Assembly (NCBI RefSeq): GCF_002277895.1 | Contig: NZ_CP022998.1 | Location: forward strand, 248,001-312,000 | Length of the DNA stretch: 64,000 bases | Source: Rhizobium sp. 11515TR | GTDB lineage: Bacteria; Pseudomonadota; Alphaproteobacteria; Rhizobiales; Rhizobiaceae | Reading direction: 5' to 3' | The notes under the pieces: generated by a model | What the model was told of the DNA's origin: nothing | Seen by the model: only the letters and a program-made list of their open reading frames with translations | Databases searched by the model: none | Shown here: one piece after another, positions 6,774 through 38,708 of the stretch | Layout: each line of letters opens with the position of its first letter | How positions within the stretch are numbered: position 1 is the first letter of the stretch | Translations under genes and position numbers: made by a program

Positions 6774-6850
6774 ATCGTTCATGCTGCAATCGGCAAGGGC
6801 ATCATTTCCCTTGTCATCCCTTCGTCACAAGGCTAAATCTGCCGACGCTC

Positions 6851-6947
6851 TAACGGGGTGCCCTGTGTTCTTTTGAACATTTGGCTGAGAGGCTTTCACC
6901 GGCCAACCCGCGGAACCTGATCCGGCTAACACCGGCGGAGGGATTAG
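6851..6947 (+). promoter_or_regulatory. TPP riboswitch (THI element)
   Basis: The conserved THI-box parts are present in order: GGGGTGCCC (6855-6863), the pyrimidine-sensor arm CTGAGAGG (6885-6892), CCCGCGGAACCTGATCCGG (6907-6925), and the closing GGCGGAGGGA (6934-6943). It ends about 60 nt before the thiB start codon, whose GGAGG ribosome-binding site could be sequestered when TPP is bound. This places the thiBPQ importer under repression by thiamine diphosphate. Confidence 0.96.
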
Positions 6948-7008
6948 ACGCGTGACGAACTCATAGCGCCCTTTCCCCTTCAGACGAAACCAAAGTGGAG
7001 GCGCCACC

Positions 7009-8037
7009 ATGCACAACCGTTTGCTATTGTCATTCTTCGCCGGCTTGGCCCTTGCAGCCGGAACGACCTTTTTTGTCGCGCAGCCTGCCGCTGCAGCCGA
7101 CAAGACCCTGACCATCTACACCTATGAAAGCTTCACGGCCGACTGGGGTCCGGGCGCCAAGGTCAAGGCAGCCTTCGAGAAGACCTGCGGCTGCACGGTC
7201 AATTATGTCGCTGTCACCGATGGCGTCGCACTTCTCTCCCGCCTGAAGCTGGAAGGCACCGGCACCAAGGCCGATGTCGTTCTCGGCCTCGACACCAATC
7301 TCATCGACGAGGCTAAGGATACCGACCTCTTTGATGTAAGCGGCGTCGACACCTCGGCCCTCAAGGTTCCCGGCGGCTTCAAGGACGACGTCTTCGTGCC
7401 CTACGACTACGGCCATTTCGCCGTGATCTATGACAGCCAGACGGTCAAGAACCCGCCGAAGAGCATGAAGGATCTCGTCGAGGGCGATCCCAATCAGAAG
7501 ATCGTCATCGAAGATCCGCGCACATCGACGCCGGGTCTCGGCCTGCTGCTCTGGGTCAAGTCGATCTATGGCGACAAATCCGCCGATGCCTGGGCGAAGC
7601 TCAAAGGCCGTATCCTGACAGTCACCCCCGGCTGGTCGGAAGCCTATGACCTCTTCACCAAGGGCGAAGCGCCGATGGTGCTCTCCTATACGACGTCGCC
7701 TGCCTATCACATGATCGAGGACAAGACCGACCGCTATCAGGCAGCCGCCTTCTCGGAAGGGCATTACATCCAGATCGAGGTCGCCGGCCTTATCAAGTCC
7801 TCGCCGAACAAGGAACTTGCCCGCGACTTCCTCAAATTCATGATCTCACCGGGCTTCCAGGATATCATTCCGACAAGCAACTGGATGATGCCGGTTTCAG
7901 CCACTTCGGAGCCGCTGCCGGACGCCTTCAACAAGCTCGTGGTGCCGTCGAAGACCTTCCTGATGAGCCCCGCCGATGTCGACAAGAACCGCAAGGCCTG
8001 GATCGACGAATGGCTGGCCGCCACCAGCGGCAACTGA
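7009..8037 (+). CDS. thiB: Thiamine ABC transporter, substrate-binding protein
   Basis: Periplasmic binding protein for thiamine and its phosphates, 342 residues. A signal peptide runs to about residue 31 (ending QPAAAADK), followed by [16 protein letters not shown], typical of ThiB in the iron/thiamine binding-protein fold. YTTSPAYHM and SNWMMPV further on are characteristic of the thiamine subgroup. The GTGGAGGCGCCACC sequence just before the ATG is a strong ribosome-binding site. It is the first gene of an operon controlled by the TPP riboswitch immediately upstream. Confidence 0.95.
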
Positions 8038-8041
8038 TGCT

Positions 8042-9685
8042 TTGACGATACTCACGGCACCAGAGCGAAGACGCGCCATTTCCGGCGGGGCAGTCAGCCT
8101 CGCAGGCATCGTGCTCTTCGTCGGGATCGCCATGCTCGTTCTGCTCGCCGCCGGCATTGACTCCGGCGGCATCAATCCCCTGGCAGATCCCTACTTGCTG
8201 CGCGTCCTGCGCTTCACGCTGCTGCAGGCGGTGCTCTCGACGCTGCTTTCCGTTATACTCGCCATTCCGATCGCGCGCGCATTGGCGCGCCAGCCGCGCT
8301 TTCCCGGCCGCCTTTGGCTCATCCGGCTGATGGCCGTACCGATGGGCCTGCCCGTGCTGATCGGCGCGCTTGGCCTCCTCGGCATATGGGGCCGGCAAGG
8401 TCTGCTCAATCAGACCCTCGCAACTCTTGGCCTGTCGCAACCTATCAGCATCTACGGTCTTGCCGGCATTCTGCTTGCGCATGTCTTCTTCAACATGCCG
8501 CTCGCCTGCAGGCTGATGCTTGCCGGACTGGAACGTGTTCCCGCGGAATATTGGCTTGTGGCCGGCGGACTCGGCATGAAGCCCGCCTCGGTCTTCCGCT
8601 TCATCGAATGGCCCGTCCTGCGTGGCCTCATTCCCGGCATCGCCGGCCTGATCTTCATGCTCTGCGCCACCAGCTTCACGCTGGTCCTGATCCTCGGCGG
8701 CGGTCCGGCTGCGACAACACTGGAAGTGGCGATCTATCAGGCGCTCCGCTTCGATTTCGATCCCGGTCGCGCCGTCATGCTGTCGCTGCTGCAAATGGTC
8801 ATCACTCTCGTCATCCTCGGTGCCATGACACTGTTTCTTGCCCCTGACGATCATGGCCTCACCAGCGGCCGCGCCCTGCGGCGCATCGACGGGCAGGCGC
8901 CTGCCCGTCGATGGATCGATGCCGCTCTGTTATCGGCGGCCACGCTCTTTCTCGCCCTGCCGCTCGCTTCGGTCGTCGTCACCGGCCTTGAGGCGAACCT
9001 CTTCAAACTCGCCGGCCAGCCGATCTTTCTGCAGGCGGCCGTCACCAGCTTGGCGATTGCGCTCGCCGCCGGATTCCTGGCCGTCCTGACATCCTTTGCG
9101 ATCATCCGCGCCCGATCGGTGATATCGGCGGATCGCCGCAAGACCTTCAGGCTCCACGGTCTGGCAATCGTGTTGAGCGGAAGCTCATCGCTCATCCTGC
9201 TGGTCCCGCCCATCGTGCTGGCAACGGGCTGGTTCCTGGCACTCCGGCCATTGGGCGACCCGAGCCGCTTTGCGGCCATCCTAATCGTCGTCATCAACGC
9301 GCTGATGGCGCTGCCCTTCGTCATCCGTGTCATCGAGCCAGCCTATGCGGTCCATGTCCGTCGCACCGAACGGCTGGCGGCAAGCCTCGGCCTTCACGGC
9401 ATTTCCCGCCTTCGCCTCATCGATTGGCCCGGCTTGCGCAAGCCGCTCTTTACGGCACTTTCCTTCGCCATGGCGCTGTCGCTGGGCGATCTGGGCGCTG
9501 TGGCCCTCTTCGGTTCGGACAGCTTGATGACCCTGCCGTGGCTGGTCTATAGCAAGCTCGGCAGCTACCGCACCAATGATGCCGATGGATATGCCTTGAT
9601 CCTTGGCCTGGTATGTCTTCTCCTGACCATTGCCGGCACAGCCGGCCAGGGCGCACGGGATGACGAAAGCAAGCGACATGACTGA
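8042..9685 (+). CDS. thiP: Thiamine ABC transporter, permease
   Basis: Inner-membrane permease with two fused transmembrane halves, about 12 helices and two EAA-type loops that contact the ATPase (around [18 protein letters not shown] and [15 protein letters not shown]). Length about 547 residues matches ThiP. An in-frame ATG at 7976 exists but lies inside thiB and would add 22 non-family residues. The TTG at 8042, 4 bp after the thiB stop, gives [12 protein letters not shown] and is the likely start, coupled to thiB. No strong ribosome-binding site is seen there, so the exact start is uncertain. Confidence 0.93.
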
Positions 9686-36440: not shown

Positions 36441-37198
36441 TCGAGCTTTCGCATATCGAAAAACGCTTCGGCGACATTGTCATCCTCAAGGATATTAGCC
36501 TGATGATCCCCGAGGGAACGGTGACGGCACTTGTAGGCCCCTCGGGCGGTGGCAAGAGCACGCTGCTTCGCTGCATCAACCTTTTGGAAATCCCGACCGC
36601 CGGAACGATCCGCATCGGAGGGGAGACGGCCACCTTCCAGCCGGGCAAGAAGCCGTCCTGGCAGGACATCCAGAAGATCCGCCGCCAGACGGGCATGGTC
36701 TTCCAGAATTTCCAGCTCTTTCCGCATCAGACCGCAATCCAGAACGTCATGGAGGGCCTGACGACCGTGCTGCGCTGGCCTCAGGATAAGGCCCGCGCCC
36801 GCGCCGTCGAGCTTCTGACCAAGGTCGGCATGGCACACAAGATCGATGCCTGGCCCTCGACGCTCTCGGGCGGCCAGCAGCAGCGCGTCGCCATCGCCCG
36901 GGCGCTCGCCCCCTCACCGCGCGTGCTGCTCTGTGACGAACCCACATCGGCGCTCGATCCGGAACTGGCGGCCGAAGTAGTCGACGTGCTGGGCAAGCTC
37001 GCCAACGAAGGCACGACCATGGTCATGGCAACGCATGACCTGCGGCTTGCCTCGAAGATCGCCAACAACGTCGTGTTCCTGGAGGCGGGCAACATCGTCG
37101 AGACCGGCTCCTCGCGCAATATCTTCTCCAATCCGGCACAGGAGCGGACGAAGCAATTCATTTCGACGCTGAATTCCGGGCTCAGCTACGATATTTGA
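36437..37198 (+). CDS. Polar amino acid ABC transporter, ATP-binding protein
   Basis: A 253-residue ATPase with Walker A GPSGGGKST (about 35-43), the Q-loop in VFQNFQLFPH, signature LSGGQQQRV, Walker [14 protein letters not shown] and switch ATHD. It starts ATGA over the stop of the permease gene, so the two are coupled. It completes the three-gene importer. No terminator is seen before the leader-peptide region of the next gene. Confidence 0.92.
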   Translation: MIELSHIEKRFGDIVILKDISLMIPEGTVTALVGPSGGGKSTLLRCINLLEIPTAGTIRIGGETATFQPGKKPSWQDIQKIRRQTGMVFQNFQLFPHQTAIQNVMEGLTTVLRWPQDKARARAVELLTKVGMAHKIDAWPSTLSGGQQQRVAIARALAPSPRVLLCDEPTSALDPELAAEVVDVLGKLANEGTTMVMATHDLRLASKIANNVVFLEAGNIVETGSSRNIFSNPAQERTKQFISTLNSGLSYDI

Positions 37199-37284
37199 GC
37201 CGCCGGCCCCGCATCGAAAAGCGATCCTGCCTTGGAGCAGGTCGCGCATTGACGCTGGGCCGCTTTGCGGTTAGCTCTAATGCC

Positions 37285-37341
37285 ATGAACACGGCACTCG
37301 TTCTCGTAGTGGTAGGAAGGCGCATGGGCAGGATGGTGTAA
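37285..37341 (+). CDS. Putative leader peptide of an attenuator
   Basis: An 18-codon frame, MNTALVLVVVGRRMGRMV, ending in TAA inside the loop of a hairpin. Six of the seven residues at positions 4-10 are Ala, Leu or Val, then Gly-Arg-Arg. It lies 123 bp before the MFS exporter gene and 33 bp before a terminator-like hairpin. No strong ribosome-binding site is obvious. The combination of short frame, nested hairpin and terminator is that of a ribosome-stalling attenuator. Confidence 0.5.
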   Translation: MNTALVLVVVGRRMGRMV

Positions 37342-37396
37342 CCATCCGGCGAAAGCACCCATGCGCGGTAAGCAGGCTCCTGACGGGGCCTTTTTT
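37320..37396 (+). promoter_or_regulatory. Nested hairpin plus intrinsic terminator (attenuator)
   Basis: Outer stem GCGCATGGG (37320-37328) / CCCATGCGC (37358-37366), perfect 9 bp. Inner stem GGATGG (37331-37336) / CCATCC (37342-37347) with loop TGTAA holding the leader stop codon. Then stem AGGCTCC / GGGGCCT (37374-37391, one G-T pair) followed directly by a run of six T. The terminator stands before the MFS coding start at 37464. Confidence 0.7.
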
Positions 37397-37463
37397 ATTG
37401 CCTGAAATCCGGGCTGCACCCGTCAGATCTTCCTCGACTTCCCACTCAACGACGGACAAGGCC

Positions 37464-38708
37464 ATGACGCGCAACGAAAGCCGCATCGACCATCCAGCCC
37501 CGCAATCGATCGAAGACAGGACCACAGAAAGAGCCGCTGCACAGCCGCGGCTGATAACCCTCATCCTGCTCTCGGCGCTCGCCGTGCTGCCAGTCAACAT
37601 GATCCTGCCGTCCCTGCCGAAGATCGCGGCGGCATTCCACGCCGATTTCGCCCTCGTCAACCTATCGGTTGCCGGCTTCTCCATTGTCACCGCGTCCCTT
37701 GAGGCTATCGGTGGCGCGATATCGGACCGGTTCGGCCGCCGGCCAGTCGTCCTGACGGCGCTCTCGATCTTCATCGTCGCTTCGATTGGCTGCGTTCTCG
37801 CGCCGAATATCGGCATCTTCCTGCTGTGCCGCATGATGCAGGCCTGCATCGGACCGTGTTATTCCGTCGCCCTCGTCATCATCAAGGAAACATCCGACGA
37901 GCGCCAGGCTGCCAGCAAGTTCGGCTATCTTGCCATGGGATGGGCATTGGCGCCCATGGTCGGTCCTCTGTTCGGCGGTTCGCTGGACGAGCTTTTCGGC
38001 TGGCGGGCAAGCTTCATCGTCCTTGCGATCTTCGGCATTGCCGCCTTTCTTCTGTCCTTGCGCGAACTGAAAGGATCGAAAGCGCCGGCGTCAGCCGCGC
38101 GCGGAAACTATCTTGCCTCCTATGCCCTGCTTTTGCATTCCGCGCGCTTCTGGGCCTATACGCTCTGCATGGCGTGCTCGATGGGCGTGCTCTACATCTT
38201 TCTCGGCGGAGCGCCGCTGACGATAGGCGATGCGCTCGGCGGTTCGAGCGCCAAGCTTGGCTTCTACATGGGCCTCGTTCCCGCCGGCTTCATTCTCGGC
38301 AGCTATCTGGCTGGCCGCCATGGCGCAAGAATCCCGCTCGGCACAATCCTCGTCATTGCGCGGCTGCTGACCTGCGTTGGTCTGTCAATTGGGCTCGCCT
38401 TGTCGCTATCGGGCATGGTTGAGGTTCTGGCGCTCTTCGGCCCCTGCATCTTCATCGGCATCGGCAACGGCCTCACGATGCCGGCCGCCAATAGCGGTGC
38501 CATGTCGGTCAGATCGGATATTGTGGGAACGGCAGCAGGCCTCGCCGCTGCCATGCGAATTGCTGGCGGCGCGCTGATCGGCTCGATCGGCGGGCTGTTC
38601 ATTGCACGATTGCCAACGATACATGTGCTCTTCGCCTTGATGCTGGCATCCGCTGTACTCGCGCTAGTGGCGGCAGTCTGGGCTGCGTTGATCGAAAAAC
38701 GGAGGTAG
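37464..38708 (+). CDS. Bcr/CflA-family MFS drug exporter
   Basis: Inner-membrane drug:proton antiporter with 12 predicted helices, 414 residues. It has NMILPSLPKIAAAFHAD in helix 1, the MFS motif GGAISDRFGRRPVVL, RMMQACIGPCYSVALVIIKE in helix 4 and LFGWRASFIVL. This is the layout of Bcr/CflA (bicyclomycin/chloramphenicol) and related exporters. The ATG at 37464 is chosen because the earlier ATG at 37398 lies within the terminator tail. Expression probably depends on read-through of the upstream terminator. Confidence 0.88.
   Translation: MTRNESRIDHPAPQSIEDRTTERAAAQPRLITLILLSALAVLPVNMILPSLPKIAAAFHADFALVNLSVAGFSIVTASLEAIGGAISDRFGRRPVVLTALSIFIVASIGCVLAPNIGIFLLCRMMQACIGPCYSVALVIIKETSDERQAASKFGYLAMGWALAPMVGPLFGGSLDELFGWRASFIVLAIFGIAAFLLSLRELKGSKAPASAARGNYLASYALLLHSARFWAYTLCMACSMGVLYIFLGGAPLTIGDALGGSSAKLGFYMGLVPAGFILGSYLAGRHGARIPLGTILVIARLLTCVGLSIGLALSLSGMVEVLALFGPCIFIGIGNGLTMPAANSGAMSVRSDIVGTAAGLAAAMRIAGGALIGSIGGLFIARLPTIHVLFALMLASAVLALVAAVWAALIEKRR

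Follow-up and report, generated by a model that had tools for sequence, protein, structure and literature searches.

Which signal could control the MFS transporter gene of Rhizobium sp. 11515TR that follows a short open reading frame (ORF), a nested hairpin and a terminator, and how might this control be exerted? The element was analyzed within a stretch of 64 kb (the window; NZ_CP022998.1, 248,001–312,000, forward strand), and all coordinates given here are window positions. A first-pass annotation of this DNA had described an 18-codon frame, nested stems of 9 bp and 6 bp, a terminator with a six-T run and the MFS gene, and had read the layout as transcription attenuation that senses either branched-chain aminoacyl-tRNA or a ribosome-targeting drug. 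The layout was confirmed, with ATG and 18-codon ORF, nested hairpin and intrinsic terminator in this order at 37285–37396. The interpretation was borne out in part: attenuation by branched-chain aminoacyl-tRNA gained support, while stalling by a drug and a pause near codons 11–13 did not. The features of the locus are the following:

37249–37254, + strand: −35 box TTGACG, with its first T 36 nt before the ATG
37271–37277, + strand: −10-like box TTAGCTC, as indicated by the base composition of 181 leaders in columns −14 to −8
37285–37341, + strand: leader peptide ORF, reading MNTALVLVVVGRRMGRMV and ending with a stop codon in the inner-hairpin loop (frame and codon-position evidence)
37287–37406, + strand: whole leader RNA, RF02502 (Atu_C8), 117.3 bits, model positions 1–122 of 122
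37297–37314, + strand: proposed control codons Leu-Val-Leu-Val-Val-Val (codons 5–10); VVV (codons 8–10) is the core most often kept in transporter leaders
37320–37328, + strand: 5′ arm of the outer stem, GCGCATGGG, pairing perfectly over 9 bp with 37358–37366
37331–37336, + strand: 5′ arm of the inner stem, GGATGG, 6 bp with 37342–37347
37342–37347, + strand: 3′ arm of the inner stem, CCATCC, with covariation in a 45-sequence alignment
37358–37366, + strand: 3′ arm of the outer stem, CCCATGCGC, with covariation in the same alignment
37374–37396, + strand: intrinsic terminator from a terminator scan, with AGGCTCC (37374–37380), GGGGCCT (37385–37391) and six T (37391–37396)
37419–37426, + strand: CCCGTCAG, complementary to CTGACGGG at 37380–37387 (terminator loop and 3′ arm) according to the fold; in read-through RNA only
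37464–38708, + strand: putative regulated gene, DHA1/Bcr-CflA-like MFS transporter of 414 aa (PF07690, E 2.9e-40; TIGR00710, 177.3 bits; motif GPLFGG)

Homology to the Rhizobial ilv Leader

The match to RF02502 covers the full length of the model (E 2.9e-25; gathering cut-off of 50 bits exceeded). In Rfam, this family is filed as 'Gene; sRNA' and as 'Rhizobiales sRNA'. The genome of the window harbors two copies, the second of which (L001) immediately precedes ilvB, the gene of the acetolactate synthase large subunit. A pattern scan of named genomes yielded at least 120 exact-core loci, to which genome searches added five. Among the at least 125 loci listed, 114 precede ilvB or a paralogue and 10, including the window, precede the MFS transporter gene or an orthologue; at the remaining one (L062), the 181 bases downstream are too short for a judgment. 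The copy before ilvB in the same genome and these 114 loci identify the element as a homologue of the rhizobial ilv leader. Since 124 of the listed exact-core loci precede ilvB, its paralogue or the MFS gene, Atu_C8 is, as judged by sequence comparison, an ilv-type attenuator leader rather than a free-standing sRNA.

A second collection was obtained with an automatic finder, which replaced an earlier, stricter version with only 2 matches. It comprised 195 leaders, and ilvB or a paralogue or the MFS gene was the downstream gene in 191 of them. The finder had no match at 19 loci, and 15 wide regions (L195–L209) were left out. After removal of L215 (a false positive with a leader of the diverged kind) and of three duplicates, 191 leaders were used for comparison. 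In an order-wide search of 297 genomes, RF02502 matched in 161 at E up to 0.001 and scored over the cut-off in 49, and the many weaker matches suggest that the leader family extends beyond what the curated cut-off admits. An ilv leader of typical rhizobial kind was also present, with ilvB, on a MAG contig labelled Arenimonas (L053; JAIBEK010000037.1). Arenimonas is a gammaproteobacterium, and the contig is possibly misbinned.

Linkage of Leader and Transporter Gene

All 90 genomes of the genus sample contained RF02502, and 46 of them also contained the MFS gene (match threshold E up to 1e-60). In 44 of these 46 genomes, the leader immediately precedes the MFS gene in the same orientation, as read from coordinates in 32, from loci L181–L191 in 11 and at a contig end in one. 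There are two exceptions: in G354, the gene is broken and has no leader, and in G368, a TPP riboswitch is located about 1.1 kb upstream of a homologue. The alignment in related genomes that the first-pass annotation had called for thus shows the leader conserved upstream of orthologous transporters, with stems that covary in 45 relatives. According to shared flanking genes, nine wide MFS regions and the window represent seven gene contexts, in which leader and MFS gene are kept together. Two Mesorhizobium loci carry leader and MFS gene without the ABC transporter that lies upstream in the window.

In two genomes of another family of the order (G127 and G259), the MFS leaders scored 85.0 and 83.4 bits as compared to 47.1 and 57.6 bits for the ilvB leaders of the same genomes. 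Since the MFS leaders outscore the genomes' own ilvB leaders, horizontal transfer of the leader–MFS pair is suggested by these sequences. In the MFS tree, RF02502-type leaders occurred in two parts (three changes), with two gains and a gain plus a loss being indistinguishable; its labels denote RF02502 only, since the label 'none' was given to 15 rows, several of which later proved to have diverged leaders.

The leader was also found before a second, diverged acetolactate synthase gene (product about 67–77% identical to IlvB1) in at least 27 of the 90 genus genomes (L152, L154, L156–L179, L223). In some lineages, the second IlvB looks degenerate, with loss of the NNQYMG/RQW loop and an altered FDDR motif. 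At least 26 genomes with a second leader–ilvB unit lack the MFS gene, which prompted the idea that exporter and spare target (the second ilvB) are alternatives. This idea was rejected because G339 has ilvB1, ilvB2 and the MFS gene, each behind a leader, and because of the degenerate second IlvB. G260 (L220/L227) and G223 (L221/L228) each have two leader–ilvB units, which share a strand and are separated by about 2.7 kb.

Leader Peptide and Promoter

The distance from the ATG to the outer stem varies in length, yet it keeps one reading frame in 181 of the 191 leaders. For the two Val codons next to the stem, codon positions 1 and 2 were more conserved than position 3 in the 191-leader comparison, with entropies of 0.58 and 0.25 vs. 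0.72 bits for one codon and 0.48 and 0.34 vs. 1.06 bits for the other. From the kept frame and the variable third positions, the leader ORF looks translated. Kept frame, codon pattern and the LVLVVV segment together present, at the level of sequence, a short ORF with tandem codons of the amino acid to be sensed. In the main text of an S. meliloti ribosome-profiling paper, 'ilv' does not occur.

Upstream of the ATG, TTGAC or TTGAT was found within 45 nt in 175 of 181 distinct leaders, with the first T at 36–38 nt in 167 of them. Shine-Dalgarno-like letters were present in only 14 of the 181. Since the spacing of the −35 box is nearly constant and Shine-Dalgarno-like letters are rare, the leader RNA is probably leaderless, with transcription starting at about the ATG. 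The Rfam model starts at the G of the leader ATG, which fits such a start; we take the ends of this model to reflect a mapped Agrobacterium transcript. A simple sigma-70 scan of 36500–38500 returned no promoter.

RNA Structure and the Search for a Switch

The hairpin alone is unremarkable: the window has 49 start positions of perfect 9-bp inverted repeats within 60 nt. Of 200 dinucleotide shuffles, however, 199 folded less well than the stretch 37287–37400 (z −3.04). In a structure alignment of 45 diverse relatives, chosen to be less than 90% identical, standard pairs were found in 94.1% of the cells and 11 of 22 pairs had changed on both sides; none of 500 shuffles reached the observed values. 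The two nested stems account for ten of these 11 pairs and the terminator for the remaining one. The outer stem was paired in 98.5% of the cells, with both-side changes in five of nine pairs, and the inner stem in 87.4%, with five of six pairs changed in this way. The terminator was paired in 94.3%, but a both-side change was seen in only one of seven pairs. In a blind helix scan of 173 distinct sequences, the inner stem ranked first and the outer stem second by covariation. The intrinsic terminator lies between leader ORF and gene, as is characteristic of an attenuator.

Folding of 37270–37470 with and without a ribosome footprint had been proposed in the first-pass annotation as a check. The lowest-energy fold of this segment kept the nested hairpin, but the terminator was replaced by pairing with 37419–37426. 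Ribosome dependence was assessed by partition-function folding with a footprint at each codon. With the footprint at every codon, the probability of the terminator was still 0.97–0.99 in the window leader and 0.95–0.96 in the ilvB1 leader, and no mutually exclusive structure was found; the proposed check thus revealed no ribosome-dependent alternative structure in the window leader. Among 16 other transporter leaders, the terminator depended on ribosome position strongly in one (L245) and mildly in three (L246, L256 and L235). In a proxy that models the moment before the 3′ arm of the terminator exists, the 5′ arm was more occupied with the ribosome stalled than at the stop codon in only 9 of 138 ilvB and 8 of 24 MFS leaders. 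Kinetics may decide the switch.

Two candidate antiterminator pairings, GGGA/TAGGA (before the outer stem) with the 5′ arm of the terminator and AGCC with GGCT, are not claimed because covariation does not support them. The pairing of 37380–37387 with 37419–37426 was rejected as an antiterminator; it cannot precede passage of the polymerase through the terminator because 37419–37426 lies behind the T run. Helices of at least 8 bp between the terminator and the next 60 nt were found in 20 of 24 MFS, 25 of 26 second-ilvB and 25 of 119 ilvB leaders. In single loci, such a helix was often reached by shuffles; it was reached by none of 30 shuffles in 7 of 24 MFS, 8 of 26 second-ilvB and 4 of 119 ilvB leaders.

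Codon Content of the Transporter Leaders

VVV was present in 26 of 36 MFS leader peptides as compared to 5 of 96 ilvB leaders (Fisher p 1e-14, relatedness ignored). One of the 36 (MPMNTALVLVVV...) is another of these peptides read from an in-frame ATG further upstream, and 25 of 35 would be an equally fair count. Leaders of the wide regions, three further peptides of which two have VVV, were left out of this count; 11 leader peptides from 19 further ilvB loci were added to the 96, and eight of these loci gave none. VVV is not unique to the transporter, since it also occurs before the second ilvB in 4 of 10 distinct peptides. Ile was found in 94 of 96 ilvB vs. 20 of 36 MFS leaders, and Leu in 95 of 96 vs. 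17 of 36. In three genomes with both genes (G024, G071 and G231), the ilvB leaders read ILVV or LIV. The window leader reads L-V-L-V-V-V, without an Ile codon.

Since VVV is enriched and Ile and Leu are rarer than in ilvB leaders, the transporter leaders point to valyl-tRNA, without exclusivity over Ile and Leu: among the RF02502-type transporter peptides, Ile is still present in 13 of 20 and Leu in 10 of 20, so that sensing may not be confined to valine. The pause had previously been placed near codons 11–13, but the conserved codons are codons 8–10 (Val-Val-Val).

Leaders beyond the Rfam Family

Searches for the MFS gene covered the family (247 genomes), the order (297) and the class (337). 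When loci with a previously identified RF02502 leader or TPP riboswitch were set aside, 32 more distant MFS loci remained and were inspected. Just upstream of 17 of them, a short ORF with Val codons is followed by a terminator (e.g., MISPVVVRRKRRRAR and MNPKSVVVVVSRRCMVR), and at the other 15 no leader was seen. The 17 comprise one RF02502 leader (L247), 12 leaders that pass an automatic criterion (12–24 codons, VV, terminator 10–60 nt after the stop codon) and four that fail it and were read by eye (L211, L235, L252 and L253), with a single Val in the core of L253. The automatic criterion selected 24 of 49 MFS ORFs and 78 of 91 ilvB ORFs, as compared to 12 of 1944 other ORFs. Seven of these 12 are the same leaders, hit through overlapping ORFs, one belongs to another MFS gene of G373, and four look unrelated.

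In G373, a third ilv-type leader (L195:4902–5020; MEIRSVILVVVGMRMGRVA) was observed before this different MFS protein, for which the best NCBIfam model is TIGR00900 (70.8 bits, below the cut-off of 319.6). The leader has therefore been recruited to transporters more than once.

The idea of attenuation by branched-chain aminoacyl-tRNA, as put forward in the first-pass annotation, is strongly supported at the level of sequence by paralogy to the ilvB leader, by linkage in 44 of 46 genus genomes and by diverged, often VVV-type counterparts in other orders.

The Transporter Protein

The gene product had been called a Bcr/CflA drug exporter. It is an MFS protein related to Bcr/CflA, but its 177.3 bits fall below the curated TIGR00710 (Bcr/CflA efflux subfamily) cut-off of 200.9, so that membership in the subfamily does not hold, and 'drug exporter' is annotation only. 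The nearest solved structure is multidrug resistance protein D (2gfp; E 4.1e-23). The motif GPxxGG, which is typical of antiporters, was present in 45 of 47 leader-linked proteins (29 of 31 RF02502-type and 16 of 16 variant-leader proteins), in neither of two TPP-linked proteins and in 12 of 15 proteins with neither leader nor riboswitch. A scan of 10 flanking proteins of seven loci for substrate clues revealed nothing shared.

In G517, a transporter homologue (L212:1541–2773) was observed directly behind a TPP riboswitch (L212:1284–1399), without leader and without GPxxGG; it is possibly thiamine-related. This locus prompted the reading that the transporters are importers, which was rejected: leader-linked proteins keep GPxxGG and the TPP-linked ones lack it, but 12 of 15 leaderless proteins have it as well. 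L193 is a weak case for import because its TPP riboswitch is about 1.1 kb away. The window itself contains a TPP riboswitch (6844–6960; 60.6 bits) upstream of two ORFs (7009–8037 and 7976–9685) that resemble a thiamine-type ABC transporter.

Valine shortage would be the inducer of the gene, and a valine exporter is therefore unlikely. Most likely, the transporter exports a compound that either brings about valine shortage or occurs together with it; alternatively, it would take up a precursor.

Discussion

Taken together, the element, which is paralogous to the ilv leader of rhizobia, is likely an attenuator of transcription that depends on the ribosome and acts on one MFS gene only. Comparison of sequences supports the homology to the ilv leader, the conserved coding, the stems and the terminator, the linkage to the transporter and the shift to valine codons. 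Translation itself, stalling of the ribosome, a structural switch, the sense in which the gene is regulated and the export of a compound linked to valine shortage are inferred, and the course of events would be as follows. Transcription would start at or next to the ATG, and the ribosome would translate the 18-codon peptide. When charged tRNA-Val, and perhaps also tRNA-Leu, is scarce, the ribosome would pause at Leu-Val-Leu-Val-Val-Val and keep RNA polymerase from stopping at the terminator, so that the transporter is made. When charged tRNA is plentiful, the ribosome would reach the stop codon within the nested hairpin and the terminator would act, leaving only a short RNA, which would be the 'Atu_C8 sRNA'. 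By analogy with ilv and trp attenuators, pausing probably prevents termination and free translation probably allows it.

Attenuation of ilv genes and leader-controlled genes are already known. A rhizobial 'ilvIH cis regulatory' element is listed in Table 3 of PMC2573895 and an 'ilvB leader peptide' is mentioned in PMC1273637; both cite Vitreschak et al. 2004. This predicted attenuator of ilvIH/ilvB shares with the element studied here the RF02502 family, a similar promoter spacing, the leader ORF, the nested stems and the terminator, but here an MFS transporter replaces acetolactate synthase, the window leader is without Ile and VVV is favored in transporter leaders. In Caulobacter crescentus, the ilvBN/ilvIH attenuator is similar by its description in PMC4117421, which gives a leader with tandem Ile and Val codons, a terminator and control by tRNA charging; it precedes a biosynthetic operon, unlike the transporter gene here. 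Searches of the open-licence literature turned up no report of the ilv leader being reused on an MFS transporter, of its shift to VVV or of how widely it has spread. For 'Atu_C8', the only paper found concerns rice proteins; 'RF02502' appeared only in a benchmark list; and two sections of a rhizobial sRNA-family study (PMC3927594) name other Agrobacterium sRNAs, not C8.

The RNA might instead act mainly in trans, as an sRNA or through its peptide, with a secondary link to the MFS gene. The model for this is trpL of Sinorhizobium meliloti (rnTrpL/peTrpL). According to PMC10117765, rnTrpL is leaderless, its ORF starting at the ATG, and as described there and in PMC7298713 its terminated RNA is seen as an sRNA with a link to efflux. 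Its codons are Trp codons, and peptide and attenuator RNA act in trans on efflux genes (PMC7298713), whereas here the transporter gene lies directly downstream. A stable terminated RNA would be expected here too, and RF02502, which is matched over its full length, is typed as an sRNA gene. The loci collected here place RF02502 as an mRNA leader: a free RNA would need no ilvB, paralogue or MFS neighbor, and one of these follows in 124 of the at least 125 listed loci and in 191 of 195 leaders. Moreover, the placement of the stop codon and the Val codons fit attenuation in cis. Action mainly in trans is thus improbable as the principal role, but the two readings do not exclude each other.

We consider it still less probable, and indeed very doubtful, that the leader is a drug sensor, with ribosomes arrested on the nascent peptide by an antibiotic that targets them and with the exporter clearing this antibiotic from the cell. 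The resemblance of the protein to multidrug exporters (2gfp) and its GPxxGG motif would suit this. In this alternative, the paralogy to the ilvB leader would be unexpected, and what is conserved is the run of Val codons, while the residues preceding it vary among leaders. The leaders of the distant transporters have valine codons in common and share little other peptide sequence, and beyond the Val run no peptide motif common to all transporter leaders was seen. Since the conserved Val run also occurs in an amino-acid biosynthesis leader, the stalling by a ribosome-targeting drug that had been proposed found no positive support. Least credible of all is an inert copy of the ilv leader, left by duplication beside an unrelated gene: the genus has seen repeated duplication of the leader, including copies before a second, partly degenerate ilvB, but 44 of 46 genomes keep it linked to the MFS gene across several gene contexts, its promoter, frame, stems and terminator are conserved, and diverged leaders precede orthologues elsewhere.

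As a tentative extension, a family of MFS exporters in several alphaproteobacterial orders might be controlled by attenuators that read valyl-tRNA and reside on more than one kind of leader RNA. The exporter would then act as a valve through which the cell disposes of a compound that deprives it of valine. Candidates would be an inhibitor of acetolactate synthase or of valyl-tRNA synthetase, or a metabolite that builds up under limiting acetolactate synthase. If this is true, the cell would detect an antimetabolite through the lack of a charged tRNA, without any regulator ever binding the antimetabolite itself. An 'orphan' sRNA of Rfam is explained here as an ilv-type attenuator leader, which has moved onto a transporter family with changed codon content and has been kept with that family across genera. 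That valine codons go with one transporter family provides a strong hint at the function of this transporter, a hint that the annotation as a drug exporter had hidden.
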